DNA of 40,772 nt from Chloroflexota bacterium (GTDB taxonomy: Bacteria > Chloroflexota > UBA6077 > FW602-bin22 > JAMCWG01), in contig JAMCWG010000175.1 of assembly GCA_023475235.1 (NCBI GenBank), forward strand, positions 1 to 40,772, given 5' to 3'. Below the pieces are notes generated by a model. It saw nothing but the letters and a program-made list of their open reading frames with translations, searched no databases and was not told the origin of the DNA. Positions 1 to 21,482 of the stretch are shown here, piece after piece. A program made the translations under genes and the position numbers. Position 1 is the first letter of the stretch; every line of letters starts with the position of its first letter.

Positions 1-639
1 GAGAAAGGCCAATAGCGCGCCGATGACGATGGCGCAGATGGCCGCCAGTTGTGCCTGGCCGTCTCGCCAGGCCAGCACCAGATAGGCCGCGAAGGCCAGG
101 CCCGTGACCCCGGCGGCCAGCCCGTCCAGGCCATCTATCTCGTTCACGCCGCTGGTGCAGCTAAAGATGGCGAGCATGCCCAGGGGAACGTACCACCAGC
201 CCAGGTCGAAGGTCCCCAGCCAGGGGACGGCGAGGGTGTGCCGGCCACTCCAGGCGAAGATCGCGTAGGCAACGCCTAGAGCAATGAGGTTGTGCCACAG
301 GAACTTGTAGCGCACCCGCAGGCCCAGGCCCTCCTGACTGCCCAGCCCGGCCAGGTCGTCGATAGCTCCCGAGACGGCAAACAGGAGAAGCGCTACGAGG
401 ATGGGCACGGCTACCTCCCACTGCCGGAGGAACAGCAGCGAGACGGCGGCGATAGCGCCGGTCATTATCCAGCCGCCCATAGTCGGGGTCCCCGCCTTGC
501 CGGTGTGAGTGCTGGGGCCGGCGGCGCGAATGGACTTGCCCACCCGCCTGTGGACCAGGAAGCCGATCCACCAGGGTGCCCAGAGGAACGCCCAGGCGAA
601 CGCCAGCAGCCCCAGGCCCACCAGGGACAGCACGCTCAC
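1..639 (-). CDS. mraY: MraY, phospho-N-acetylmuramoyl-pentapeptide transferase (partial, C-terminus off window)
   Basis: Integral membrane enzyme that moves phospho-MurNAc-pentapeptide from UDP to undecaprenyl phosphate, making lipid I. The frame opens with GTG at 639, overlapping the murF TGA by four bases, and stays open to base 1 (213 codons). Visible family marks are a hydrophobic N-terminal segment, the GKAGTPTMGG motif near residue 47, an AIDDL Asp pair near residue 92, and NEIDGLDGLA near residue 165, followed by more membrane segments. The family is usually 320-360 residues, so roughly the last third is missing. The overlap implies translational coupling to murF. The identification is firm; only the truncated end is unseen. 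Confidence 0.93.
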   Translation of the reverse strand, partial: MSVLSLVGLGLLAFAWAFLWAPWWIGFLVHRRVGKSIRAAGPSTHTGKAGTPTMGGWIMTGAIAAVSLLFLRQWEVAVPILVALLLFAVSGAIDDLAGLGSQEGLGLRVRYKFLWHNLIALGVAYAIFAWSGRHTLAVPWLGTFDLGWWYVPLGMLAIFSCTSGVNEIDGLDGLAAGVTGLAFAAYLVLAWRDGQAQLAAICAIVIGALLAFL

Positions 640-2021
640 TGGCGCCGCCCCCCCTCCTCGGGCTGCTGCCAGCGCGCCACCAGGTCCTCCATCTTCATCC
701 CCCGCGACCCCTTGATCAACACCCAGTCCACCGGCCCGAACTCCAGCTCCACCTCATCCTTAGTGGCGGCGAACTGCACCGATGCCATGCCGGAGGCCCG
801 CGCCTCCTCCCCGATCAGGCGGGCGCGCTCGCCGACCACCACCAGCCGGTCCAGGACCGCGGCTGCCCAGCGCCCGACCTCCCGGTGCGCCGACTCCTCG
901 TACGGGCCCAGCTCCAGCATATCGCCCAGCACGGCGACGCGGCGTCCGGGCAGGTCTGACAGGAGGTCTAGCGCGGCGTGCACCGACACCGGGGCCGCGT
1001 TGTACGTGTCGTCGATGAGATGGGAGCCGTTGGGACCGGGCACCACTCGCAAGCGCAGGGCCGGCGGCGGGCTGGCTAGGCCCATCGCGATGTCCTCGGG
1101 GGACATCCCCTCCACCATTCCAACCGCCGCTGCCGCCAGGCACGCGTAGACCTGATGCCGGCCCATCAGAGCGCTGCTCACCGATATGCTACGCTCCCCC
1201 AGATGAAGGCGGAAACAGATGCCGGCCAGCCCCAGGCTTTCCAGCTCATCCGCCCGGACCTCGCAGTCCTCTCCCAGGCCGAACAGCAGGCGGCGCGCCG
1301 GCGTCGGCATATCCCTGACCCGCGGGTCGTCGCCGTTCAAGACGGCCCAGCCGGCGGACGACAGCGAGCGCGGCAGCTCCCCCTTGGCCTCGGCGATGCG
1401 CTCAAGGCTTCCCAGGCGCTCCAGGTGGGTCGGCCCCACGTTGGTGACCACGCCGGTATCGGGCTCGGCGATGCGGCACAGCGCGGCGATCTCCCCGGGG
1501 CCGTACATACCCATCTCCAGGACGGCCCGCTGATGGATGGCCTCCAGCTTGAGCAGGGTCAGCGGCAGGCCCGTCTCGGTATTCAGGTTGGCCTCGCTCC
1601 GCAGGACCTGGAACCGCCTGGACAGCACGGCGGCGATCATCTCTCTGGTGGTGGTCTTGCCCACGCTGCCGGTGACCGCGATCACCCGTATCGCGTGCCG
1701 CCTACGCCAGTAATGGGCCAGATCCTGCAGGGCGCGCAGCGCATCGGGCACGATCAGGTAGGCGAGCCGGGAGGATTCCCCGGCGGGCAGCCAGCCGGCC
1801 CCGGGCTCTCGCTCGGCGATCACGCCGGTCGCGCCGCGCCGGACGGCGTCGGGGATGAACTGGTGGCCGTCGGCACTTTCCCCGCGCAGGGCCACGAAGA
1901 GCGATCCGGGGACAGCCTGCCGCGAGTCGTGCACCACGCCGGTGAACTGCATGGTGGCAGAGGTCTCGAAGGCGAGCCGGTGTGCGCCGATCCCCTCACG
2001 CACCTGGGCCAGGAAGATCAT
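636..2021 (-). CDS. murF: MurF, UDP-MurNAc-tripeptide:D-Ala-D-Ala ligase
   Basis: Cytoplasmic ATP-dependent ligase adding D-Ala-D-Ala to UDP-MurNAc-tripeptide. The 461-aa protein has the usual three-domain Mur ligase layout: an N-terminal substrate domain with HDSRQ and GxxFVALRGE-type motifs (about 31-47), a central ATPase with P-loop TGSVGKTTT (117-125) and NVGPTHLERLGS (about 184-195), and a C-terminal domain with DDTYNAAP and AVLGDMLELG. Length is normal. The ATG at 2021 overlaps the upstream PBP stop by four bases and its own stop overlaps the mraY GTG, so three genes are tightly coupled. No murE lies between the PBP and murF, where many dcw clusters carry it. Confidence 0.96.
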   Translation of the reverse strand: MIFLAQVREGIGAHRLAFETSATMQFTGVVHDSRQAVPGSLFVALRGESADGHQFIPDAVRRGATGVIAEREPGAGWLPAGESSRLAYLIVPDALRALQDLAHYWRRRHAIRVIAVTGSVGKTTTREMIAAVLSRRFQVLRSEANLNTETGLPLTLLKLEAIHQRAVLEMGMYGPGEIAALCRIAEPDTGVVTNVGPTHLERLGSLERIAEAKGELPRSLSSAGWAVLNGDDPRVRDMPTPARRLLFGLGEDCEVRADELESLGLAGICFRLHLGERSISVSSALMGRHQVYACLAAAAVGMVEGMSPEDIAMGLASPPPALRLRVVPGPNGSHLIDDTYNAAPVSVHAALDLLSDLPGRRVAVLGDMLELGPYEESAHREVGRWAAAVLDRLVVVGERARLIGEEARASGMASVQFAATKDEVELEFGPVDWVLIKGSRGMKMEDLVARWQQPEEGGRRQ

Positions 2022-3721
2022 TGCTGCACCCCCGCGAGGGTCGTGGAAGGGGGCACCCGATAATAGGCCAGCAACTGCTCGGCCACCGCTCGAAACAGGG
2101 GAGCGGCCACCTCCGGCCCGGAGAAGCTGGTCTGGGGGCGGTCCACCTTCACGACAATGGTAAAGCGAGGCTTGTCTGCCGGCACGATCCCAATGAACGA
2201 GACGCTCTCGTTACTGGGGGAAGCGCTGCCGGGAGCGCTGGCGATGCCGGCCACCACGTACGGCGGAAGGGCCGCCTGGGTGGCCGTGGCCTCCGGCCCC
2301 TGGACCGTGGCGGCCATCATTTCTTTCACCGCCCGCGCCGTGGCAGGCGAGATTACCTGCCTGACCAGGCGCGGGTCGAATGGGATCTTCGCGTCGCCGA
2401 AATGCATCTCCTGTACCAGGTAGGGCTGCATCAGCAGGCCCCCGTTGGCGATGGCGGATGCGCCCGCCGCCAGTTGCAGCGGCGTCGCCAGGATGCCTCT
2501 ACCGAAAGCCTGCGAGCCGAAGTTGGCCTGCGTGCCCACCATCCCAGCGTTCTCGTCCGCCATGCCTATCCCGGTTGCCTGGCCGAAGCCGAACTTCGCC
2601 ATGTACTGGTAGAAGGCGTCTGCCCCCAGCCGGTTGGCGACGTAGGCCACGCCGATTTCCGAGCCGCGCTGGACCACCTGGGTCATGTTCTCGGGACCCG
2701 GCTGGTCCTGGCCACCGCTCGGCGCGGCCCCGTTGCCGGCTGCGGCCGTGCCCTTGTTGAGGAAAGTGTGGTCGGTGGTCACCGCTCCCGTGTCCAGGGC
2801 CGCAGCCATCGTCATTATTCGTATCAACGATACGGGCTCGTAAGCTACGCTTACCGCCGGGTGCCGGTACATCGCTACCTGTCCTTCATCTATTATCTGT
2901 TTTGGATCGATGGCGGGCGAGGCGGCCATCGCCAGGACCGCCCCCGTGCTCGGGTCCATAACCACGACGGCACCGCCGCTGGCCCGCTGCGCGGCCACCG
3001 TCTTCTCCAGCTCCACCTCGGCGATGCGCTGGGCAAAGCGGTCCAGGGTCAGGACCAGGTCCGCGCCCCGATAATACGCATTCCGTCCGTATCCAAGGCG
3101 GCCGCTCAATTCGGCGTCGTACCCGGCCTCCAGCCCCGTGAGCCCGCGTCCATCCCTTCCTACCAGCCCCAGCACGGCCCCTCCCAGCTTCCCCTCCGGG
3201 TAGCCACGCCTCGCCTCCGTGCGCACCATCAGCTCCGGCCGCGCCAGACGGCGCACCTGCTCGACCTGGTCCGCGCTCAGCGCCGACTGGACGAGGACCG
3301 GCTCGCGCTGCCGCGCCAGCAGCCTGGTCCGCAAGTCGCTTTCGGAAGATCCCAGGACCGGAGACAACGTCGAGGCCAGGCGGTCAGGACTGTTCACGCG
3401 GACCGGATCGGCGTATAACGATTCATAGGTTACGTCAGCGGCCAGTAGTTGTCCAGTGGCGTCATAGATGGCACCGCGAACGGTGGCCGGCGGCCGGGAC
3501 AGCGGGCTCGACGCGCCGGCTGTCCTGGAGCGCTCGGCGCCAGGGCTTGCCAGGCTAGCAGCTCCTGGAAACCCAAAGACCTGTACCAGGAGAAGTCCCA
3601 CCAAAAGCAAAGCAGCCGCGCATAATAGGGGCAGCCGCCAACGGGACAGGAACCGTTGGCGGCTTCTCCGTGGTCCAGTGCGTCGTCTCCCCACTGACCG
3701 GTGGGTACGTCCTTGTTCCAT
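2018..3721 (-). CDS. FtsI/PBP2-like protein with degenerate transpeptidase motifs
   Basis: By position (after ftsL-like, before murF) and architecture this is the class B PBP of the division cluster: a basic cytosolic tail, one membrane segment (about 30-50), a PBP dimerisation domain (about 75-215) and a transpeptidase-fold domain (about 240-555). The catalytic motifs are altered. The SxxK position reads S298-L-I-R301 in the context AYEPVSLIRIMT, the SxN position reads G-S-E (353-355), and the KTG position reads I-A-S (503-505) in VAGIASAPG. I checked the first and third against the bases. The frame is open over 567 codons, of normal length, so it is not a simple pseudogene. Inference: a non-catalytic structural PBP in the divisome. 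A true FtsI would have to be elsewhere. Confidence 0.88.
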   Translation of the reverse strand: MEQGRTHRSVGRRRTGPRRSRQRFLSRWRLPLLCAAALLLVGLLLVQVFGFPGAASLASPGAERSRTAGASSPLSRPPATVRGAIYDATGQLLAADVTYESLYADPVRVNSPDRLASTLSPVLGSSESDLRTRLLARQREPVLVQSALSADQVEQVRRLARPELMVRTEARRGYPEGKLGGAVLGLVGRDGRGLTGLEAGYDAELSGRLGYGRNAYYRGADLVLTLDRFAQRIAEVELEKTVAAQRASGGAVVVMDPSTGAVLAMAASPAIDPKQIIDEGQVAMYRHPAVSVAYEPVSLIRIMTMAAALDTGAVTTDHTFLNKGTAAAGNGAAPSGGQDQPGPENMTQVVQRGSEIGVAYVANRLGADAFYQYMAKFGFGQATGIGMADENAGMVGTQANFGSQAFGRGILATPLQLAAGASAIANGGLLMQPYLVQEMHFGDAKIPFDPRLVRQVISPATARAVKEMMAATVQGPEATATQAALPPYVVAGIASAPGSASPSNESVSFIGIVPADKPRFTIVVKVDRPQTSFSGPEVAAPLFRAVAEQLLAYYRVPPSTTLAGVQQ

Positions 3722-3831
3722 AGCCAGACCCGCTAGCCTTCGCCAGTGTTATGGGAAAAAGCCTCGAGACAAGACAGGGCGCTTCTTGGGCCGCTCTGCG
3801 TCAGTCCATGCAGTTCCTCGTTCGGCAGCGC

Positions 3832-4053
3832 TCACGCGCTCCGCACCCGCGATGCTGAGATCGACAGATCAGGGTTGGCTGCCGGCGCGACATCGGCCCG
3901 CCTCGACGAGATAGTCGCGCCCGGCGACGATAGCTGTCCCTTCAGGTCGACGGCAGCTCTCGGGACAACAGTCGAGCGGACCGATGCCCCTGTCATATCC
4001 GCTGCTACGGGTCGCCCGGCTGTGCCGGGGGGCATAAAATCCACTAATCGCAT
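3832..4053 (-). CDS. Possible small protein (73 aa) between ftsL-like and PBP genes
   Basis: The 458 bp between the ftsL-like gene and the PBP gene hold no recognised gene. This ORF is reported because a strong Shine-Dalgarno (GGAGGTGAGG) lies about nine bases before its ATG at 4053, and the direction matches the cluster. The product has no signal peptide, membrane segment or motif I recognise and is rich in Ala, Ser, Arg and Val. A 66-aa ORF from 4069 overlaps it in another frame with no better support. It could be a real small dcw protein, a leader, or chance. Confidence 0.3.
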   Translation of the reverse strand: MRLVDFMPPGTAGRPVAADMTGASVRSTVVPRAAVDLKGQLSSPGATISSRRADVAPAANPDLSISASRVRSA

Positions 4054-4179
4054 TGAACCTCACCTCCAAACATGGAAGCCGTCATACCCGAAAACCCCAG
4101 CCGCCAGGAAAAAGGGGGCCGCCCATCTTCCGGGCGCACTCTCCTCTCCTGGCAGCGCCCCTCCTGCCATTCAGACCGA

Positions 4180-4734
4180 TTAGCGGCGCCCGTAGTCGGA
4201 CTCGCTGGCCGAGACGTCGCCGGGCTTGATGAAAAACATAAGCTGCTCCAGCCATCCCCCTCCCGACGATGGAAGGTCGGCCATACGCGCGCTGGCCAGG
4301 GGGGAGCTGCCGCCCTGCGGGCCGCGCGTGCCCTGGATGGCCGCCAACGCCCCCGCGCCTGGAGCAACCCTGCCTGCGGGCGCGGCGCTGCCGGTCGCGA
4401 CGAAGGTGGGCATTGGGACGAAGGTCAGCTCCGCGGGGGTCGGCGGGCGCATCCCCAACTGCCCCAGGCCGATGGGCACCAGCCGGTCGAGGGACCGCAG
4501 CTCGGCGATCTCCATCCGCAACTGGTCGCCCGTAGTCTGCTCCGAGCGCAACTGCGCCTCCAGACGCTGTACTCGCTGAGTGGCCGCGGCCACCTGGCCG
4601 CTCAGCGTGATGTAAGCCCAGCCAAGGGACGCCAGCAGCAGCAAGCTTGCCAGCAGCCATACCGGCGGTACCAGTGCCTGGCTAGCCGCCCGGTAACGCC
4701 GGGATACGGGTTGGGCCATCAAGTCCACTGCCAC
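4180..4734 (-). CDS. FtsL/DivIC-like septum protein
   Basis: Bitopic membrane protein in the FtsL position between rsmH and the class B PBP. The 184-aa product has a short cytosolic N-terminus, one strong membrane helix (about 25-46), then a heptad-like coiled coil (about 47-82, with QRVQRLEAQL and MEIAELRSL) ending in a LVPIGLGQLGMRPP segment typical of FtsL-type proteins. Beyond residue 105 is a long Pro/Ala/Ser/Gly-rich tail not usual for the roughly 100-residue family. FtsL normally heterotrimerises with DivIC/FtsB and recruits FtsW/FtsI. Sequence identity in this family is too low for a firm gene name, so the call rests on topology and context. Confidence 0.72.
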   Translation of the reverse strand: MAVDLMAQPVSRRYRAASQALVPPVWLLASLLLLASLGWAYITLSGQVAAATQRVQRLEAQLRSEQTTGDQLRMEIAELRSLDRLVPIGLGQLGMRPPTPAELTFVPMPTFVATGSAAPAGRVAPGAGALAAIQGTRGPQGGSSPLASARMADLPSSGGGWLEQLMFFIKPGDVSASESDYGRR

Positions 4735-4778: not shown

Positions 4779-5744
4779 CTATGCTGGCGTTAGAGCCTCC
4801 GCCACTCGCAGCTTGGCGCTGCGGGAGCGGGGGTTGGTCTTCTCCTCTTCACGGGTCGGTGTTATCGGCTTACGGGTTATCAGGCGCAGCCGCGGCCGGT
4901 GGCCGCACCTGCACACGGGCAGGCCGGGCGGGCAGATGCAGCCGCGCGCCTCCCTGGCCATAAAGGTCTTCACGATGCGGTCTTCCAACGAATGGAAAGA
5001 GATGACGGCCAGCCGCCCGCCCGGCCGGAGCAGGTCCAGCGCTTGCGGCAGGGCTCGCTCCAGGCTCTCCAGCTCCCGGTTCACGGCGATGCGCAGGGCC
5101 TGGAAAGCACGCGTAGCCGGATCGATACGCCCCCGGCCCCTCGGCACGACCCGCCGCACGATCGCCGCCAACTGCCCGGTGGTGCGAATGGGCGACTGCT
5201 CGCGGGCCGCCGTGATGGCACGGGCCAGTGGCCGGGACCGCCTTTCCTCGCCATACCGGTAGAATATGTCGGCCAATTCTTCCACCGTCAGCCGGTTCAC
5301 CAGGTCTGCGGCAGTCGTCGTCTGCGAAGGGTCGAGCCGCATGTCCAGCGGCCCTTCACTCTGAAAGGAGAATCCTCTTTCGGCGCGTCCTAATTGCATC
5401 GAAGAAACACCCAGGTCGAACAAGACACCGTCTACCGCCGCGAAGCCGTGCTCGACGGCTACGCTGCCCACCTCTGCAAAATTGGCCACCACCAGAACGC
5501 AGCGTTCTCCGAAGTCCACAAGCCGCTGCTTAGCTGATTCAACAGCGTCAGGGTCGGCATCCAACCCCAGCAACCGACCGCCAGGTGCGCTTCGTTCCAG
5601 GATGCCACGGGCGTGTCCTCCCAGTCCAAGGGTGGCATCGATGTAGCGTCCACCCGGCCGTGGCTGCAGCGCCGCCATAACCTCTTCGAATAGTACTGGC
5701 GTGTGCTCATAGCTCGAATTCCTGCTGCCGTTGTCCGACGGCAT
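4779..5744 (-). CDS. rsmH: RsmH, 16S rRNA (cytosine1402-N4)-methyltransferase
   Basis: SAM-dependent methyltransferase acting on C1402 of 16S rRNA in the ribosomal P site. The 321-aa product matches the family throughout: [11 protein letters not shown] near the N-terminus, SAM-binding [10 protein letters not shown] (about 36-45), [38 protein letters not shown] and the signature [12 protein letters not shown]. Cysteines near the C-terminus ([15 protein letters not shown]) are also common in the family. The ATG at 5744 gives a 38-bp overlap with the end of mraZ. No later in-frame ATG precedes the conserved start of the domain, so this start is favoured. Length is normal. Confidence 0.96.
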
Positions 5745-6138
5745 TTGCTCGCTCCCGTTGATTGGCTTCCTCCTGGTCCCAGACCTCTCTTGCCCAGATC
5801 TCGATGAATTCGCTGACCCCCATGATGATCACCTCATTCTTGATCTTGGCGAACTCTCGCATATAGGGCGGAATGACGATGCGGCCCTGCTGGTCCATTC
5901 GGCAATCGGCAGCGCTAGAGAAAATGAGGCGGCGGAAGGACCTGGCATCTGGGTTGGTCAGGGGAAGTTTGGCCATCCGTTCCACCAGCACCTTCCACTC
6001 CGCCTCCGGATAGATGAGGAGACAGTTGTCGAAACCTGTGGTCAGGTATAGACCCGAGGCCAGTTCTGCGCGATACTTGGAGGGGATTGATAGACGTCCC
6101 TTGTCATCGACGCTGTGCTGATACTGGCTTAGGAACAC
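5707..6138 (-). CDS. mraZ: MraZ, transcriptional regulator of the dcw cluster
   Basis: DNA-binding repressor of its own cluster, a ring-shaped oligomer of double AbrB/SpoVT-like folds. Two such motifs are visible: [13 protein letters not shown] near residue 12 and [15 protein letters not shown] near residue 84. The open frame extends to 6249, but the GTG at 6138 is chosen because it gives 143 residues, the family's usual size, starts at [15 protein letters not shown] where MraZ begins, and has GGGAG upstream. The longer start would also put the presumed promoter inside the coding region. Repeat sites matching the known MraZ operator lie about 130 bp upstream. Confidence 0.94.
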
Positions 6139-6239
6139 GGGCGTCCACTCCCAACCGAATCGAATAGGTCGACGCTGTCTCCGCTGGAGCCAGGTGCCAT
6201 GTGTGGTAATTGCTTCCACTATGCACCGCAGCGGCCCAC

Positions 6240-6291
6240 AGTCTACCACTCTGCCCCACCAGAGTCAACCACTTTTCCCCATTTTCTCCCA
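6240..6291 (-). promoter_or_regulatory. mraZ promoter with MraZ operator repeats
   Basis: Read on the minus strand, TGGGA (from 6291), TGGGG (from 6281), TGGTT (from 6271) and TGGTG (from 6261) are spaced exactly 10 bp apart. This matches the known MraZ site, TGGGN repeats with five-base spacers, two perfect and two degenerate. They overlap the -35 box TTGACT (6268-6263), followed after 17 bases by a -10 TAGACT (6245-6240). A 7-bp inverted repeat AGCAATT/AATTGCT (6291-6308) abuts the array. Repression by MraZ occluding the -35 is the natural inference. Confidence 0.8.
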
Positions 6292-7590: not shown

Positions 7591-9252
7591 ATGCGAGCGA
7601 TTGTGCATTTGGCAATCCCAATTGTGGTAGTGTTGGCCCTGCTCGTCGCGTGTGCCCCAGCGGCACCCACTGCAGCGCCTACAAAGCCTTCGGCCCCTGC
7701 CGCGCCTACTGCGGCACCCAAGGCAGCGGCGACCGCGCCGGCCGCCCCCACTTCTGCACCAGCCGTCAAGATCAAGCGTGGCGGTACCCTCAGGGTTGGC
7801 ACCGGCGCCGAATGGACCCCCAACGCTGATCCCATCCAGAACGACCAGTCTGGTAGTGGGAGCTTCGAGGGGCTGTTCTCCACCTTCGCCAAGTTCGTGC
7901 GCGATCCTAAGACCAAGAAATTCGATGTGAAGCCGAATCTGGCTGAGTCCTGGGAGACGCCGGACCCCAAGACCCTAATCCTGAAACTCCGCAAGGGCGT
8001 CACCTTCCACGACGGCAGCCCGTGGAATGCCGAGGCGGCCCGCTGGAACATCGACCGGTGGAAGAATCACAAGAAATCTGGCGCCAAGCAAGACGTTGCA
8101 ATCATCGACTCGATGACGGTCGTCGACGATTACACTTTGAAGCTGAACCTTAAGGCGCCGCCGGCCGGCCTGATGGCCGTGATGAGCGACGGCGCAATCC
8201 GTACCTGGGTCATCTCGAAGGAGACGGCCGAGAAGATGGGCGACGACTCCATAGCCCGCAACCCGGTGGGCGCTGGACCCTTCAAGTTCGCGGAGTGGAA
8301 GACGAACGATAGCATGACCCTCAAGAGGTACGACAAGTACTGGGAGATGGGCGAGGACGGCCAGCCTCTGCCCTACCTGGACAGTGTCGTTTACCGTGTC
8401 ATCAAGGATAACAGCGTCAGGGCCATCGAGCTCAAGACGGGCAATATCGACTTCGCCAACAGTAACATGCTGGCGAAGGATATCCCCGGCCTGGCCGCAA
8501 CGCCATCGTTGCAGAAAGTGGAGATGGACTGGCAAGGCGATGCGTCCTACTTCTTCTTCAATTCCGAAAAGGAACCCTTCGGCAAGAACAAGGCCCTGCG
8601 CCAGGCCTTGCAGTATGCCATCGATCGAGAGAGCCTGGCCAAGACGATGGCCCCCGGTCTGGGCAAGCCGGCCTATTACCACTGGGCGGCGAGCATGATC
8701 GGCTACGACGAGACGCTTCCCAAGTATGATTACCAACCGGAGAAGGCCAAGCAATTGATGGCACAGGCCGGCTATCCCGACGGCGTGGACGTAAGCGTTG
8801 TCATCCTGCAGGGGGAAATCGCCAACAAGGTGGGAGAGATCCTCAAGTCGATGTTCGAGAAGATCGGAGTTCGGCTGACGCTCGACATTCGGGAGCGGGC
8901 GGCTGCCATCGCCGCTTGGGAGAGCGGCAACTTCGAGTTCGGCCTCTCCGGCAAACCCCTGGGCGAGATTGACCCGAATATGCTGAACAACCGCTTCATG
9001 ACCGACATGAACAAGAACTACGGCCGCACCCACAACGCTGAACTGGACAAGTGCTTCGAAGAGGGGATGCAAACCATCGACGAGGCCAAGCGCGCCGAGA
9101 TCTACAAGCGCTGCCAGAAGCTTATCTTCGAGGACGCTTACTTCGGCCTCACCCACTGGACCCCGAACGATCGCTGGGTGAACAAGCGGGTGAAGGGCTG
9201 GGACATCCGCTTCGGCGGCGACCTGCGCCTGGCGGGTATCTGGTTGGAGTAG
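7591..9252 (+). CDS. ABC transporter solute-binding lipoprotein, SBP_bac_5 family (first of four)
   Basis: Extracellular substrate receptor of the peptide/nickel/oligosaccharide (DppA/OppA-like) class. The 553-aa product starts with a lipoprotein signal ending LALLVAC (lipidated C21), an Ala/Pro/Thr linker to about residue 60, then the domain start KIKRGGTLRVG. Family landmarks follow: LAESWETPDPKTLILKLRKGVTFHDGSPWNAE, GAGPFKFAEWK and ALRQALQYAIDRESLAK. A near-ideal ribosome site precedes the ATG. No permease or ATPase gene is adjacent or anywhere in the window. The substrate cannot be read from sequence; a glycoside-hydrolase-like neighbour hints at oligosaccharides. Confidence 0.93.
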   Translation: MRAIVHLAIPIVVVLALLVACAPAAPTAAPTKPSAPAAPTAAPKAAATAPAAPTSAPAVKIKRGGTLRVGTGAEWTPNADPIQNDQSGSGSFEGLFSTFAKFVRDPKTKKFDVKPNLAESWETPDPKTLILKLRKGVTFHDGSPWNAEAARWNIDRWKNHKKSGAKQDVAIIDSMTVVDDYTLKLNLKAPPAGLMAVMSDGAIRTWVISKETAEKMGDDSIARNPVGAGPFKFAEWKTNDSMTLKRYDKYWEMGEDGQPLPYLDSVVYRVIKDNSVRAIELKTGNIDFANSNMLAKDIPGLAATPSLQKVEMDWQGDASYFFFNSEKEPFGKNKALRQALQYAIDRESLAKTMAPGLGKPAYYHWAASMIGYDETLPKYDYQPEKAKQLMAQAGYPDGVDVSVVILQGEIANKVGEILKSMFEKIGVRLTLDIRERAAAIAAWESGNFEFGLSGKPLGEIDPNMLNNRFMTDMNKNYGRTHNAELDKCFEEGMQTIDEAKRAEIYKRCQKLIFEDAYFGLTHWTPNDRWVNKRVKGWDIRFGGDLRLAGIWLE

Positions 9253-11622: not shown

Positions 11623-11847
11623 GCAGCAACCGCTCCATCCTGATGATTCTGGTGCCCGGCCCGCTGTCTCCTCTCGCCACCGGGCTCCCCCGACATCAAT
11701 TGTTACACCGCAGTAGTTGCTTTGGCAATAGGGAAAAGTGACAGCCCACCAAAACGAACTGCCGATCGCTAAATGCATTTCTTCCAGTCGCCGACCGTGT
11801 ACTACCTACCGCTTTTCCCGAAGAGCGAAGACCAGTCTTCGATAGAG

Positions 11848-11877
11848 TTGACGATAGTGCTATCATACTGCTATCAT
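11848..11877 (+). promoter_or_regulatory. Promoter of the second binding-protein gene with repeated extended -10
   Basis: TTGACG (11848-11853), 18 bases, TATCAT (11872-11877) with an upstream TG, giving TGCTATCAT. An identical TGCTATCAT lies at 11858-11866, and GATAG-TG-CTATC (11853-11864) is a perfect palindrome, so an operator may overlap the promoter. Confidence 0.6.
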
Positions 11878-11883
11878 AGTGGT

Positions 11884-12012
11884 AGACATAACGAGTTCAT
11901 TGACTCTTGCCTGTCAGCATGCCCATTTTTGGAAGCAAGAGCGCGCAGGCGTGACGTCGAACTCTGCATACTTGAGACTGACAGGATGAATCGCTGTCAG
12001 TCTTTTTGTTTT
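11884..12012 (+). promoter_or_regulatory. Candidate 5' leader attenuator or riboswitch (terminator/antiterminator)
   Basis: An intrinsic terminator is clear: AGACTGACAG (11975-11984), a nine-base loop, CTGTCAGTCT (11994-12003), then TTTTGTTTT. It lies about 90 bases after the expected transcription start and 175 bases before the binding-protein ATG at 12187, in the same direction. An upstream segment CCTGTCAG (11910-11917) is the exact complement of CTGACAGG (11978-11985) in the terminator's left arm, so pairing there would block the terminator. CTCTTGC (11904-11910) can pair with GCAAGAG (11935-11941) and would sequester the first base of that arm. A short ORF (11919-11954, 11 codons) lacks a ribosome site. 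No known riboswitch class is recognised. It could also be a free-standing small RNA. Confidence 0.65.
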
Positions 12013-12186
12013 CTCCGGGGCAACTGGTACGAGCAACCAGCACTTTATGGAACCGCTAGAAAGGGGTCGAATTCGGAGGCACAAACCGTAGATGACCATG
12101 TAGTTGCCAGGTTGCAACAATCATTCCGCTCTTACCATGTCGTTTCGTCGTTTCGCAAAGTTGGGAACGAGGGAAAGGGGAATGAA

Positions 12187-13833
12187 ATGCGAGGAAGCGC
12201 TTGTCTGGTGATTACCGCATTGGTTGTGTTAGGCTTGGTGACGGCTTGTGCCCCCACAGAGCCCACCAAGCCTGCCGCTCCAGCCCCCACCGTGGTGCCC
12301 GCTGCTCCCACCAAACCGGCGGCTCCTACCGCCACGCCCGCGCCCAAGATCAAACGGGGCGGCACCGCCCGGGTCGGCAGGTCGGCAGATTTCGCCCCTA
12401 ATCTGGACCCCCACCAGTTCACTGCTCCTCTGATGGGGCTGGACGTCATCTTCAACGCCCTGTTGAAAGGCTCCAGGGACGAAAAAACCGGCCAATGGAA
12501 ACTGGGCCCGTGGCTGGCCGAATCCTGGGAACTGCCGAACCCCAAGACGGTGGTTTTCAAACTGCGCAAGGGTGTTACTTTCCACGACGGCTCCGCCCTG
12601 GACGCCAAGGTGGTCAAGTGGAACCTGGATCGGATGCGTACTCATCCGAAGTCGGCTGCCAAGACCGACTTCGAAAAAATCGAAAGTGTTGATGTTCTGG
12701 ACGACTACACTGTCCGCCTGAACCTAAAAACTCCTCCCGCTGGGTTGCTTGGCCTCCTCTCGGATCTGCACCAGAACTATCGCGGGGCCATCATCTCCCA
12801 GGCTACGGTGGAGAAGCAGGGCGACGAGTTCATCACCCGCAATCCCGTGGGCAGCGGGCCGATGACCTTCGTTGAATGGAAGTCCGGCTCTCATATGACC
12901 GTGAAGAAGTGGGACAAATACTGGGAGAAGGGCGAAGATGGCCAATCGCTGCCCTACCTTGACGGGATCACCTACCGTTTTATTGCTGATCCTACAGTGC
13001 TGGCGCTGGAATTAAGAACCGGCAATCTCGAGTTGGGAGACGAGATCCAGGTCAAGGACTTTCCCGCGGTGAAAGCGGACCCCAACCTCCAACTGGTGGA
13101 GTTCGAGTGGTCCTCCGTCGTGCAGTACATATTCTTCAATATGAAGAAACCTCCCTTCGGCAACAACTTGAAACTGCGCCAGGCAGCGCTCTATGCCCTC
13201 GACCACGAAAACATGGCCAAGGCCATCGGTATGGAGGCTGGCCGCCCCGCTTACTATTTCTGGGACAAAGGTGTCTTGGGCTACGACGACACTCTGCCAC
13301 GCTACAATTACCAGCCGGATAAGGCCAAACAACTGGTGAAAGAGGCGGGTTTCTCTGATGGCGTCTCCGTAAATGCCAGTTTCTTTACCCAGGGTGCTAT
13401 CCCGCGCACCGCTGAGGCGACCAAGCAGATGTGGGACGCAGTGGGCATTAAGACGACGCTGGAGGTGCTGGAGCGCGCCGCCGCGGTGGCCAAGTGGCAG
13501 ACCGGTGGACACGAAGTGGCCCTCTCCCAACGACCCTCCAGTGTGATGGACCCCGACGACGATGCGTACCGGATCGTGACCGGCGGCGTCTTCAACTTTG
13601 CCCAATGGGAGAACAAAGAGCTGGACAAGTGTATGGAAGAGGGCCGCAGCATCATTGAAGAGGCCAAACGGGCCGAGATCTACAAGCGCTGTCAACGAAT
13701 CATCTATGAAGATGCTCCTTATGGCCAGAGTTGGTCTATGCCCAGGAATGTGGTGGTCTCGAAAAAACTGAAGGGCTTTGAGGCGCACCGCTTCTTGGGA
13801 GCGCTGCTGGGTCGAGCCTGGTTGGACAAGTAG
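12187..13833 (+). CDS. ABC transporter solute-binding lipoprotein, SBP_bac_5 family (second of four)
   Basis: Extracellular receptor of the DppA/OppA class, 548 aa. The open frame runs back to 11773, but that part contains the promoter and a terminator. The ATG at 12187 is chosen because it follows GAGGGAAAGGGG and opens a proper lipoprotein signal ending LGLVTAC (C21). An Ala/Pro/Thr linker leads to KIKRGGTARVG, then LAESWELPNPKTVVFKLRKGVTFHDGS, GSGPMTFVEWK and KLRQAALYALDHENMAK. It closely parallels the first and third binding proteins and probably arose by duplication. No transporter membrane genes are near. Expression may depend on the leader attenuator. Confidence 0.93.
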   Translation: MRGSACLVITALVVLGLVTACAPTEPTKPAAPAPTVVPAAPTKPAAPTATPAPKIKRGGTARVGRSADFAPNLDPHQFTAPLMGLDVIFNALLKGSRDEKTGQWKLGPWLAESWELPNPKTVVFKLRKGVTFHDGSALDAKVVKWNLDRMRTHPKSAAKTDFEKIESVDVLDDYTVRLNLKTPPAGLLGLLSDLHQNYRGAIISQATVEKQGDEFITRNPVGSGPMTFVEWKSGSHMTVKKWDKYWEKGEDGQSLPYLDGITYRFIADPTVLALELRTGNLELGDEIQVKDFPAVKADPNLQLVEFEWSSVVQYIFFNMKKPPFGNNLKLRQAALYALDHENMAKAIGMEAGRPAYYFWDKGVLGYDDTLPRYNYQPDKAKQLVKEAGFSDGVSVNASFFTQGAIPRTAEATKQMWDAVGIKTTLEVLERAAAVAKWQTGGHEVALSQRPSSVMDPDDDAYRIVTGGVFNFAQWENKELDKCMEEGRSIIEEAKRAEIYKRCQRIIYEDAPYGQSWSMPRNVVVSKKLKGFEAHRFLGALLGRAWLDK

Positions 13834-14061
13834 TAAGCAAGCGAGGTTGCGGGCCTCGCCATCGGGAAGGATAGACGATTTCCGAGCCCGTGGGCGGTGG
13901 AGGGTGGACGAAGCGACACAATGGCTCACGGGCTTTGAGACGTCATTGGTGTGGTAGTCACGGAGGGTAGCCTATGGATGTCTAGGGGCTTTGTGCTCCG
14001 ATGATGGTGCCCGTGTCTGGAAGTTGTCTATTCGGGTAGCAAAGAAAGGAGATTGGCTCTG

Positions 14062-15738
14062 ATGACTAAGGTTCGACTTGTCTTAGCATTGGCCACGATA
14101 TTGGCTTTGCTGATGGCCTGCGCCGCGCCGGCCGTCCCTACCGTGGCTCCGAAGCCGGCTGAGCCCACCAAGCCCGCCGCACCGGCTCCCACCGCCGCGC
14201 CCGCGGCGCCTGCCGCCACGCCTCGCCCAGGCGAGTCGCCTGTGGCGACAGCCCCCAAGATCAAGCGAGGGGGAACGTTGCGGGTCGCTGCCACTGAAGA
14301 ATACCAGCCCAACCTCGACCCCCACCAAATCACCGTGCCCTGTTGGGCCTTCGACGTCATCTTCGGCAACCTGACTCGAATGGACATCGACGTCAAGACC
14401 GGCAAACGCACCCTGCAGCCCGGGCTTGCTGAATCCTGGGAGCAGCCCAACCCCAAGGCCATCGTGTTCAAACTGAGGAAAGGAGTGGTATTCCACGATA
14501 ACAGTCCGTGGAATGCCGAGGCGGCCAAGTGGAACTTAGACCGAATGAGGACCCATCCCAAGGCTGCTACCAAGACCGATATGGCCGTCGTTGACTCCGT
14601 AGACCTGGTGGACGAGTACACTGTTCGAGTGAACCTCAAAGTCGCGCCCGCTGGTCTCCTGGAGCGGTTGAGCGATGGCCTATCCATCAGGGCATGGATG
14701 ACCTCTAAAGCTGCCGTAGATAAGTATGGCGATGAATATACAGCCCGCAATCCTGTCGGCACTGGGCCGATGCAGTTTGTCGAATGGAAGACGGGTGACC
14801 AACTCACGGTCAAGAAATACGACAAGTATTGGGAGAAGGGTGCAGACGGTCTGCTCTTGCCTTACCTGGACGGGATCGTCGTCCGGCTCATCATTGATGA
14901 GGCTGTGCGCACCACGGAGGTACGCACCGGAAACGTAGATATGGCGATGAGAGTCCACCCCCGCAATTTCGCAGCCGTGAGAGCCAACCCGAAGATAGAA
15001 TTGATCGAGTATCCTTGGACTGCACTTGTCCAGTACAACATTTTCAACGTCAAGAAGTCGCCCTTTGACAACGTGAAACTGCGTCAGGCAGCCCTCTACG
15101 CCATAGATCGGGAGAGTATGGCTAAGGGGCTGGGAATGGGCTCAGGCCAACCTACCCCCTATTATTGGGGGCCCAATGATCTAGGCTATGACGAGACGCT
15201 GCCCCGTTATACTTACCAACCAGACAAGGCCAAGCAACTAATCAAAGAGGCGGGCTATCCAGGAGGCTTGGACGTGGTCAATCCATACTTCACCTCTGGG
15301 CTGATCCCGCAAACAGCTGAGATGCTCAAGAGCATGTGGGACGCCGTCGGCATTCGCACCACCCTAGAACCCTTGGAGAGGGCAGCCTTCGTTCCCAAAC
15401 TGCAGACCGGGAACTATCAGGTAGCCAACTCCAATCGGGACTGGGGTGCGGCTGATCCGGACGACTACTCTTTCCGGCTCACTACCGGCGGCGTGTTCAA
15501 CTTCGCTCAATTTGAGAATGCAGATATGGACAAATGTATGGAGGAGGGCCGCAACACTGTAGAGGACGCCAAGCGGGCCGAGGTCTACAAGCGCTGCCAA
15601 AAGATCCTTATTGAGCAGGCTCCCTACGGCGAGATGTGGCATAGCCCCAAGAACTTGGTGGTCGGCAAGGATGTCAAAGGCTGGCAGCCTCACTTCTTCG
15701 ACATGACCCGCCTGGGCTACGTCTGGCTGGACAGGTAG
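14062..15738 (+). CDS. ABC transporter solute-binding lipoprotein, SBP_bac_5 family (third of four)
   Basis: Same family and plan as the two before it, 558 aa from ATG 14062, with AAAGGAG ten bases upstream; a TTG nine bases earlier sits too close to that site. The signal ends LALLMAC (C20). The linker carries an extra RPGESPVAT segment just before KIKRGGTLRVA, encoded by a copy of the dispersed palindromic repeat. Domain landmarks are LAESWEQPNPKAIVFKLRKGV, GTGPMQFVEWKTGDQ and KLRQAALYAIDRESMAKGL. It lies 228 bases after the second binding-protein gene with no promoter I can call confidently, so it may be co-transcribed. Confidence 0.93.
   Translation: MTKVRLVLALATILALLMACAAPAVPTVAPKPAEPTKPAAPAPTAAPAAPAATPRPGESPVATAPKIKRGGTLRVAATEEYQPNLDPHQITVPCWAFDVIFGNLTRMDIDVKTGKRTLQPGLAESWEQPNPKAIVFKLRKGVVFHDNSPWNAEAAKWNLDRMRTHPKAATKTDMAVVDSVDLVDEYTVRVNLKVAPAGLLERLSDGLSIRAWMTSKAAVDKYGDEYTARNPVGTGPMQFVEWKTGDQLTVKKYDKYWEKGADGLLLPYLDGIVVRLIIDEAVRTTEVRTGNVDMAMRVHPRNFAAVRANPKIELIEYPWTALVQYNIFNVKKSPFDNVKLRQAALYAIDRESMAKGLGMGSGQPTPYYWGPNDLGYDETLPRYTYQPDKAKQLIKEAGYPGGLDVVNPYFTSGLIPQTAEMLKSMWDAVGIRTTLEPLERAAFVPKLQTGNYQVANSNRDWGAADPDDYSFRLTTGGVFNFAQFENADMDKCMEEGRNTVEDAKRAEVYKRCQKILIEQAPYGEMWHSPKNLVVGKDVKGWQPHFFDMTRLGYVWLDR
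14222..14251. repeat. Dispersed palindromic repeat core inside a coding linker
   Basis: Two adjacent mini-hairpins, CTCGCC-CA-GGCGAG and GTCGCC-TGT-GGCGAC, lie in frame in the lipoprotein linker. The second closely matches TTCGCCTGTGGCGAC near 7019 and CTCGCCTATGGCGAC near 21711. Confidence 0.7.
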
Positions 15739-19778: not shown

Positions 19779-21482
19779 CTACTCCATCCAGAGATCGGCC
19801 CAGAATGGCATCACTTCGGCGTAAGGGACCAGACCATGCAATTTCTTGTTGTAGGCGACGTAGTCCTCCAGCACCCAGAGGTGGACGAAGTAAGCATCGT
19901 CATAGGCAATCTTGTCGGCTCGCTGGAGGGCCTCTCCCCGCTGCTGCTCGCTGGTGGACAGCTCGGAGTCCTTGAGGGCCGCTTCGAACTGGGGATTGCA
20001 CCAGCCCGGAAAGTTGGAGGCTCCAGCGCAGGCCATCCGTCGTTGCAGCGTGACGTACGAGTCTACCCCGCCTCCAACGCTGTATGTCATGGCCTCGAGG
20101 CTGAACGTGCGGACCTTCGCCGACCAGGCCACCCGCTCCAATACCTCGATGGTGGTGCGAATGCCCGCCTTGTCGAGCATGTTCTTGATGATCTCCGATT
20201 GCGGCCGGTCGGGCTCGCGGCCGATGATGGTAAGCGTTGTGTCCGCGCCGTTCGGATATCCGGCCTCGGCCAATAACTGCTTGGCCTTGTTCAGGTCGTA
20301 CTTGTAGACGGGCAGATCCTCTCTGTAGCCTGTTTGTCCCTTGAATATCATCGTCTCCGGCAAGGCTCCGGCTCCCTGCCCGAGGGCGTTTACCATTGCC
20401 TGTCGGTCAATGGCGTACTGGGCAGCCTGTCGCAGCTTAAGGTTGTCCTTGAAAGGCCCGGTCTTGGCGCTGAGGGCCATCACCTTCAGATCACCACGTC
20501 CCTCCCACTTCTTGACTACCAGGTCCGGGTTCGCCTTGAGCGTCGGTATGTCGCGGGGCTGAATGGCGTTCTGGAACTGCGTATTACCCGTGGAGAGTTC
20601 TATCCTGGCCACGGCCGAATCGGCGATGAAGCGCAGTTCGACGCCATCCAGATAGGGCTTCGGTTGTCCGTCCACTCCCTTCTGCCAGTAGTTCGGAAAC
20701 TTCTTGAAGATCATTCGGTCGCCGGCCCGCCACTCCACCAGTTGGAAAGGCCCTGTACCAACTATGTGAGTGGCCAGGTACTCCTCACCCTGCTTTTCAA
20801 CCGTTTCCTTAGAGATCATCGGTGCCCGGCTGGTGGCCATCGACATAGACCACAGCGCGGCGGCTGAGGGTTCTTTGAGGTTGACCTTAATGGTGTAATC
20901 GTCCACTGTGTCTACGGACGTTACCTCCCGCACGGCGTCTTTTGTCAGAGACATCGGGTGATCCCGCATCCTGAGCAAGTTCCACTTGGCTACCTCAGCG
21001 TTCCAGCCGCTTCCGTCGTGGAACTTAACGCCTTTACGCAGTTTGAAGATGATCGTCTTTGGGTCCGGCCGGTCCCAGGACTCCGCCAGTTGGGGAACCA
21101 ATTCCATCTTGTTCGTCTTTTCGTCGATCTTGACGTCGATCAAACCCTCGGTGTGCACCTCGTGGTCCGATCGAGTCAACTGCGCCAAATGGAGGTCGCC
21201 TGTGCCCCAATCGCTGTTGAAACTGGTGCGGACGATGCCCCCACGCTTCACTTTCGGTGCGGCAGCCGTGGGCGTAGCTGCTGGTGCCGTGGCGGCTGCT
21301 TTCGGCGCGGCGGTGGGAGCGGCAGCCGTAGGCGCGGCTGGCGCCGCAGTGGGCGCCCCTGTGGTGGCTGGCTTAGTGGGTACCGGTGCAGGCGTCGCCG
21401 GCGCACAGCCTGCAACCGCTAAGCCGACACCGATCAAGAGCGATAAGGTCATTATCAAGCTTCGATGATACGGATGCCACAT
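19779..21482 (-). CDS. ABC transporter solute-binding lipoprotein, SBP_bac_5 family (fourth of four)
   Basis: Extracellular substrate receptor, 567 aa, on the opposite strand from the other three. The lipoprotein signal ends GLAVAGC (C26). A long Ala/Pro/Thr linker of repeated AAPTAAP-like units reaches about residue 77, then KVKRGGIVRTS. Landmarks are LAESWDRPDPKTIIFKLRKGVKFHDGSGWNAE, GTGPFQLVEWRAGDRM, KLRQAAQYAIDRQAMV and KAKQLLAEAGYPNG. AAAGGAGAAGAGG precedes the ATG. It is more divergent than the first three but shares the same linker style. No permease genes flank it. The operon end upstream at 21717 suggests its own promoter in 21483-21716, which I could not pin down. Confidence 0.92.
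   Translation of the reverse strand: MWHPYHRSLIMTLSLLIGVGLAVAGCAPATPAPVPTKPATTGAPTAAPAAPTAAAPTAAPKAAATAPAATPTAAAPKVKRGGIVRTSFNSDWGTGDLHLAQLTRSDHEVHTEGLIDVKIDEKTNKMELVPQLAESWDRPDPKTIIFKLRKGVKFHDGSGWNAEVAKWNLLRMRDHPMSLTKDAVREVTSVDTVDDYTIKVNLKEPSAAALWSMSMATSRAPMISKETVEKQGEEYLATHIVGTGPFQLVEWRAGDRMIFKKFPNYWQKGVDGQPKPYLDGVELRFIADSAVARIELSTGNTQFQNAIQPRDIPTLKANPDLVVKKWEGRGDLKVMALSAKTGPFKDNLKLRQAAQYAIDRQAMVNALGQGAGALPETMIFKGQTGYREDLPVYKYDLNKAKQLLAEAGYPNGADTTLTIIGREPDRPQSEIIKNMLDKAGIRTTIEVLERVAWSAKVRTFSLEAMTYSVGGGVDSYVTLQRRMACAGASNFPGWCNPQFEAALKDSELSTSEQQRGEALQRADKIAYDDAYFVHLWVLEDYVAYNKKLHGLVPYAEVMPFWADLWME

Follow-up and report, generated by a model that had tools for sequence, protein, structure and literature searches.

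FtsI and PBP2 are credited with two jobs, the cross-linking of peptidoglycan and the switching on of a SEDS polymerase, which laboratory point mutants have been able to uncouple. In Bacillus subtilis a catalytically inactive PBP2B sustains division if PBP3 is active, and PBP3 is then essential (PMC5656894). Structural and genetic work showed that contact between the pedestal of the class B PBP (bPBP) and ECL4 activates the SEDS polymerase FtsW, and this activation was offered to explain how a cell can require FtsI without requiring its transpeptidase activity (PMC8078798). The same logic holds for SpoVD and PBP3 of C. difficile, where loss of catalysis leaves a bPBP able to serve its SEDS partner (PMC12713402). 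SEDS activation by a dead bPBP is established for engineered mutants; no report of a natural dead-bPBP state was found in the literature searched, from which most subscription journals were missing.

The window analyzed here is a stretch of 40,772 nucleotides from a Chloroflexota bacterium. Its ftsI gene is read from 3721 to 2018 without internal stops, whereas the plus-strand reading of the same segment is interrupted by stops (Table 1). An earlier note, made from the letters of the window, had described an FtsI in normal position and of normal length, and both points held, the gene lying on the minus strand between ftsL and murF. The protein has the build of an FtsI-type class B PBP, with a transmembrane helix, a PBP_dimer pedestal (E 3.8e-13) and a transpeptidase domain matching positions 1-298 of the 299 of Pfam PF00905 (E 1.6e-55). 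Its best matches are the FtsIs of dcw clusters, at 38-45% identity, and PBP2 is a separate gene on another contig (C119); the window protein is accordingly assigned as the orthologue of the FtsIs of its order rather than of PBP2. A wider scan of genome contigs returned a distant Parachlamydiales FtsI at 26% and nothing else. An AlphaFold2 model of the protein, built from an alignment with one relative, reached a pLDDT of 31 and was discarded.

Table 1. Coordinates of the dcw genes of the window and of the parts of its FtsI.
Feature	Position	Strand	Remarks
mraZ	5707..6249	-	
rsmH	4779..5744	-	
ftsL-like gene	4180..4734	-	position and weak similarity to FtsL of relatives
ftsI pseudoenzyme	2018..3721	-	567 aa, full length
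Single N-terminal transmembrane helix, about residues 29-49	3575..3637	-	hydrophobic run in the sequence
Pedestal / PBP_dimer region, about residues 81-215	3077..3481	-	usual terminal AERDxxGDE segment deleted
Transpeptidase domain	2081..2974	-	PF00905 match
SxxK position, S298-L-I-R301	2819..2830	-	alignment to relatives
SxN position, G353-S-E355	2657..2665	-	alignment to relatives
KTG position, I493-A-S495	2237..2245	-	alignment to relatives
murF	636..2021	-	overlaps the ftsI stop
mraY	1..753	-	cut by the contig end; open frame, start codon inside

The protein shares domain order, length and dcw position with the canonical FtsI/PBP3 of E. coli and P. aeruginosa, but differs from them in the three catalytic motifs, SxxK, SxN and KTG, which are intact there. 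Alignment to relatives confirmed the earlier reading of these motifs as SLIR, GSE and IAS: YEPGSxFK of the relatives has become YEPVSLIR, RSSN has become RGSE and AGKTGTA has become AGIASAP. Of the catalytic side chains of the three motifs, the nucleophile S298 alone is retained: SxxK has lost its general-base Lys (K301R), SxN both its Ser (S353G) and its Asn (N355E), and KTG all three of its residues. No acylation is to be expected of serine acyltransferases of the FtsI family with such residue losses, and at the level of sequence the window FtsI can be said to lack all acyl-transfer chemistry. An enzyme of altered chemistry, using S298 with Arg301 and Glu355 in place of Lys and Asn, could be imagined from the retained serine and from the parallel gain of R and E in a second genome of the order (G012), but the window KTG is wholly gone and the dead PBP2s of G001, G006, G010 and G011 considered below have lost the Ser too, making this reading very unlikely.

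The genes of the cluster lie on one strand in the order mraZ, rsmH, ftsL-like, ftsI, murF and cut mraY, which is the usual order of the group (G003, G005, G009 and G007). Between ftsL and ftsI the window has about 430 bp (3749-4179), compared with almost none in relatives; this gap contains a 73-aa minus-strand ORF (4053-3832) preceded by GGAGG, and no regulatory RNA or strong promoter was found in it. Another contig of the same genome (C37) continues the cluster with murC-murB-ddl-ftsQ, followed by a gene of the metallo-beta-lactamase fold and metabolic genes; ftsA-ftsZ follow ftsQ in G003, G005, G007 and G009 and not on C37. Elsewhere the window carries four similar solute-binding lipoproteins of the peptide-transporter type (7591-9252, 11773-13833, 14053-15738 and 19779-21482) with Ala/Pro/Thr-rich linkers, and two more are found on C37.

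The distribution of the dead state was determined in 13 genomes of the order (the window genome and 12 others), none of them nearer to the window genome than the order itself. Ten of the 13 have a dcw FtsI, of which seven are fully intact, one carries KPG (G011) and two are dead, those of the window and of G012, in which all three motifs are lost (SLFR, SSE and AEG). Outside the order, all 15 FtsIs read from the class keep the catalytic residues, and so do 47 taken as a sample across the remainder of the phylum, with SxxK, SxN and K[TS]G in each except for one KTA. Since SxxK, SxN and the Lys of KTG are present in 62/62 FtsIs outside the order, the motif loss of the window FtsI is judged not to be ordinary variation, and among the genomes read the dead state is restricted to the order. 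In G011 (KPG) and G066 (KTA) the third motif alone has changed. The FtsI of G011, the sister genome of the dead G012, may be partly impaired.

The earlier note had held that intact motifs in relatives would point to recent decay or sequencing error. Most relatives do have intact motifs; the independent loss in G012, together with dead PBP2s in the same order, nevertheless indicates a recurrent change and not an isolated error. A chimera or a consensus error might be suspected in a metagenome-like draft of 196 contigs (74.8% complete), but the changes fall at many sites and none breaks the frame, all being substitutions or gaps of whole codons, the window genome is placed consistently in the order by its flanking dcw genes, and the same kind of loss occurs in an independent assembly (G012). 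Artefact is the least probable of the readings considered.

A single origin for the dead state of the two FtsIs was rejected. In a species tree built from seven other dcw proteins, with the wrongly assigned Mur ligase of some genomes of family f7 left out as murF, G012 groups with G011 inside f7, whereas the window genome has a different place in the order, and the FtsI tree agrees. Forcing the dead FtsIs into one clade was 42.6 log-likelihood units worse (AU p 0.0002, full length), and the same constraint on the transpeptidase domain alone gave an AU p of 0.008. The match between the trees and the rejection of a single dead clade indicate that the losses in the window genome and G012 were independent. 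Both proteins carry the same replacement at four lost invariant positions aligned without gaps (K301R, N355E, V412A and T505E), and a fifth, T493I, hinges on the alignment at the former KTG. The new Arg-Glu pair across the former active site is possibly a structural patch. Such parallel replacements at former active-site positions, and the acceleration of all domains of the window FtsI, would also suit a protein repurposed for a role outside division (for example, ligand sensing), which would explain rapid change throughout; the gene has, however, kept its dcw place, flanked by ftsL and murF, and its product has no extra domain, and we regard repurposing as improbable.

The earlier note had also taken the open frame and preserved fold as a sign of selection, a claim that was sustained in part. 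The window FtsI keeps 84 of the 116 residues invariant in eight intact FtsIs (72%), against an overall identity of about 40%. Had the changes on the FtsI branch in excess of the 0.53 per site of the species branch been neutral, they would be expected to produce about 15 stops (0.029 stops per amino-acid-changing mutation), and none was observed; codon-position GC is coding-like (69.5/53.0/78.5), and the open frame and coding signature persist despite long divergence. On the other hand, the FtsI branch has about 1.47 changes per site compared with 0.53 on the species branch, approximately three times faster than the neighbour genes, and the protein lacks EHWR, conserved in the juxtamembrane region, as well as the AERDxxGDE segment of the pedestal. 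Pairwise dN/dS of the window gene to members of the order is below 1, but dS is saturated, and the value to G005 (0.37-0.45) exceeds that of the intact G005-G009 pair (0.15-0.17). Losses of invariant residues number 6/37 in the N-terminal and pedestal regions and 26/79 in the transpeptidase domain (p 0.076), so that loss specific to the catalytic domain, for the window protein taken alone, falls short of significance. In the FtsI of G012 the pedestal has lost 0/37 and the transpeptidase domain 16/79 (Fisher p 0.0025).

The fast branch, the pedestal and juxtamembrane losses and the raised dN/dS are what would be seen if the window FtsI were a relict, in a lineage where septal FtsWI synthesis had become dispensable, constraint on ftsI had relaxed and deletion lay ahead. 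Family f3 (G002 and G008) lends this reading an example: its contiguous dcw cluster runs rsmH-murF-mraY-murD-murG-murC-ddl-ftsZ, and ftsL, ftsI and ftsW were found neither in these clusters nor elsewhere in the two genomes. Each f3 genome has one SEDS gene and keeps FtsZ, and ftsA does not belong to the cluster. A known system given as "C. [quoted passage not shown]" parallels the f3 loss of ftsL, ftsI and ftsW and differs from the window genome, which keeps a dead FtsI gene. Against a relict stand the 567 codons free of stops and frameshifts, the coding-like base composition, the share of invariant residues kept at so low an identity, and the intact flanking cluster. We consider the relict reading rather unlikely, though it is still a live rival.

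A parallel within the order is PBP2 (MrdA), the class B PBP encoded beside rodA, which is dead in five genomes, four of family f7 and G001. The motifs read ATFH, SCN and VVG in G006, AAFH, SCN and EVG in G010, ATFQ, SCN and VVG in G011, and APFQ, GCN and HAA in G001; the G012 copy is truncated and reads SIFQ. In G001, G006, G010 and G011 the transpeptidase domain has lost 13-16 of 73-74 invariant residues and the N-terminal and pedestal regions at most 1/33, so the confinement of loss to the transpeptidase domain, with the pedestal conserved, is seen for the full-length dead PBP2s as for the FtsI of G012. Pairwise dN/dS of the transpeptidase domain among the dead PBP2s of f7 is about 0.07-0.13, much like the 0.06 of an intact one, with dS near saturation, and the dead PBP2s are under purifying selection. 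Since their losses spare the pedestal and dN/dS in f7 is low, these proteins provide strong evidence that non-catalytic SEDS partners are kept by selection in the order. The RodAs adjoining the dead PBP2s of G001, G006, G010 and G011 keep the Asp equivalent to D297 of E. coli FtsW, and G012 has an FtsW with this Asp; only D297 served as the catalytic check, since positions 289 and 370 of that E. coli protein are conserved in none of the SEDS proteins compared. Separate origins of the dead PBP2s of G001 and f7 are likely from the species tree; the PBP2 tree groups them at 92/90. The same conversion seems to have happened repeatedly in the order, in FtsI (window and G012) and in the RodA partner PBP2 (f7 and G001).

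Taken together, we favor the reading that the window FtsI is a natural pseudo-transpeptidase kept as a non-enzymatic scaffold or activator of its SEDS polymerase, with a probability of roughly 0.58. The earlier proposal of a non-catalytic divisome protein is the best-supported one, given the second, independent loss in G012 and the dead PBP2s, without having displaced the relict reading. SEDS polymerases of the FtsW type need a structural and allosteric partner, and the protein would be retained in that capacity: through its transmembrane helix and pedestal it would dock onto FtsW and switch it on, septal cross-links would be made by other transpeptidases, and the window protein would work like the FtsI of G012.

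Candidates for the cross-linking enzyme exist. Class B PBPs with a MecA_N domain (PF05223), about 705-840 aa long, occur in G001, G002 and G005-G012, with two copies in G006, G008, G010 and G011, and none occurs in G003 or G004; a scan of five of them confirmed PF05223 in each, and length and motif served to assign the rest. Their architecture is that of B. subtilis PBP3 and staphylococcal MecA. The motifs read YPTGSIFKV, SCx and KTGSAE, apart from minor differences in f3 and an ambiguous alignment of the third motif in G007. Each of the other genomes whose SEDS-partner PBP is dead has a MecA_N PBP with intact motifs. Neither a MecA_N PBP nor, as the earlier note had asked to be checked, a second, intact FtsI was found in the assembly of the window genome, which is 74.8% complete. 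The other PF00905 matches there are PBP2 and PBP1A, both with intact motifs, and one below threshold, which is read as a DacA-type carboxypeptidase; one YkuD-type L,D-transpeptidase is also present. The suggestion that another transpeptidase does the chemistry thus has candidates in the PBP3/MecA-type enzyme of the relatives and in PBP2, PBP1A and the L,D-transpeptidase of the window genome, but the MecA_N enzyme is missing from its own assembly. FtsW, FtsZ, MurD and MurG were likewise not found in this assembly; FtsW should not be called absent, since the gap between mraY (C77) and murC (C37) would hold murD, ftsW and murG.

The nearest experimental counterpart is B. subtilis PBP2B(S309A) with PBP3/PbpC (PMC5656894), in which a non-catalytic division PBP suffices while a MecA_N-type PBP cross-links, a pair that the relatives of the window genome carry. 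That strain is an engineered point mutant, whereas the window protein lost all three motifs in nature, and the incomplete assembly of its genome shows no MecA_N enzyme. The redundancy of SpoVD/SpoVE and PBP3 in C. difficile (PMC12713402) is alike in that a dead bPBP serves its SEDS partner, and differs in being an engineered mutant studied in sporulation division.

A wider version of this reading, held more tentatively and at somewhat less than even odds, is that throughout the order SEDS-attached transpeptidases have been turning into dedicated non-catalytic activators, several independent times and with either polymerase, FtsW or RodA, as partner, while free-standing class B PBPs of the MecA_N (PBP3) type take over the cross-linking; the window FtsI would be one instance. 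If the interpretation is correct, the repeated natural separation of the two functions would show that activation by itself suffices for the protein to be retained, the natural variants would allow the activation surface to be mapped free of catalytic constraint, and division in these bacteria would be predicted to be independent of beta-lactam acylation of FtsI.
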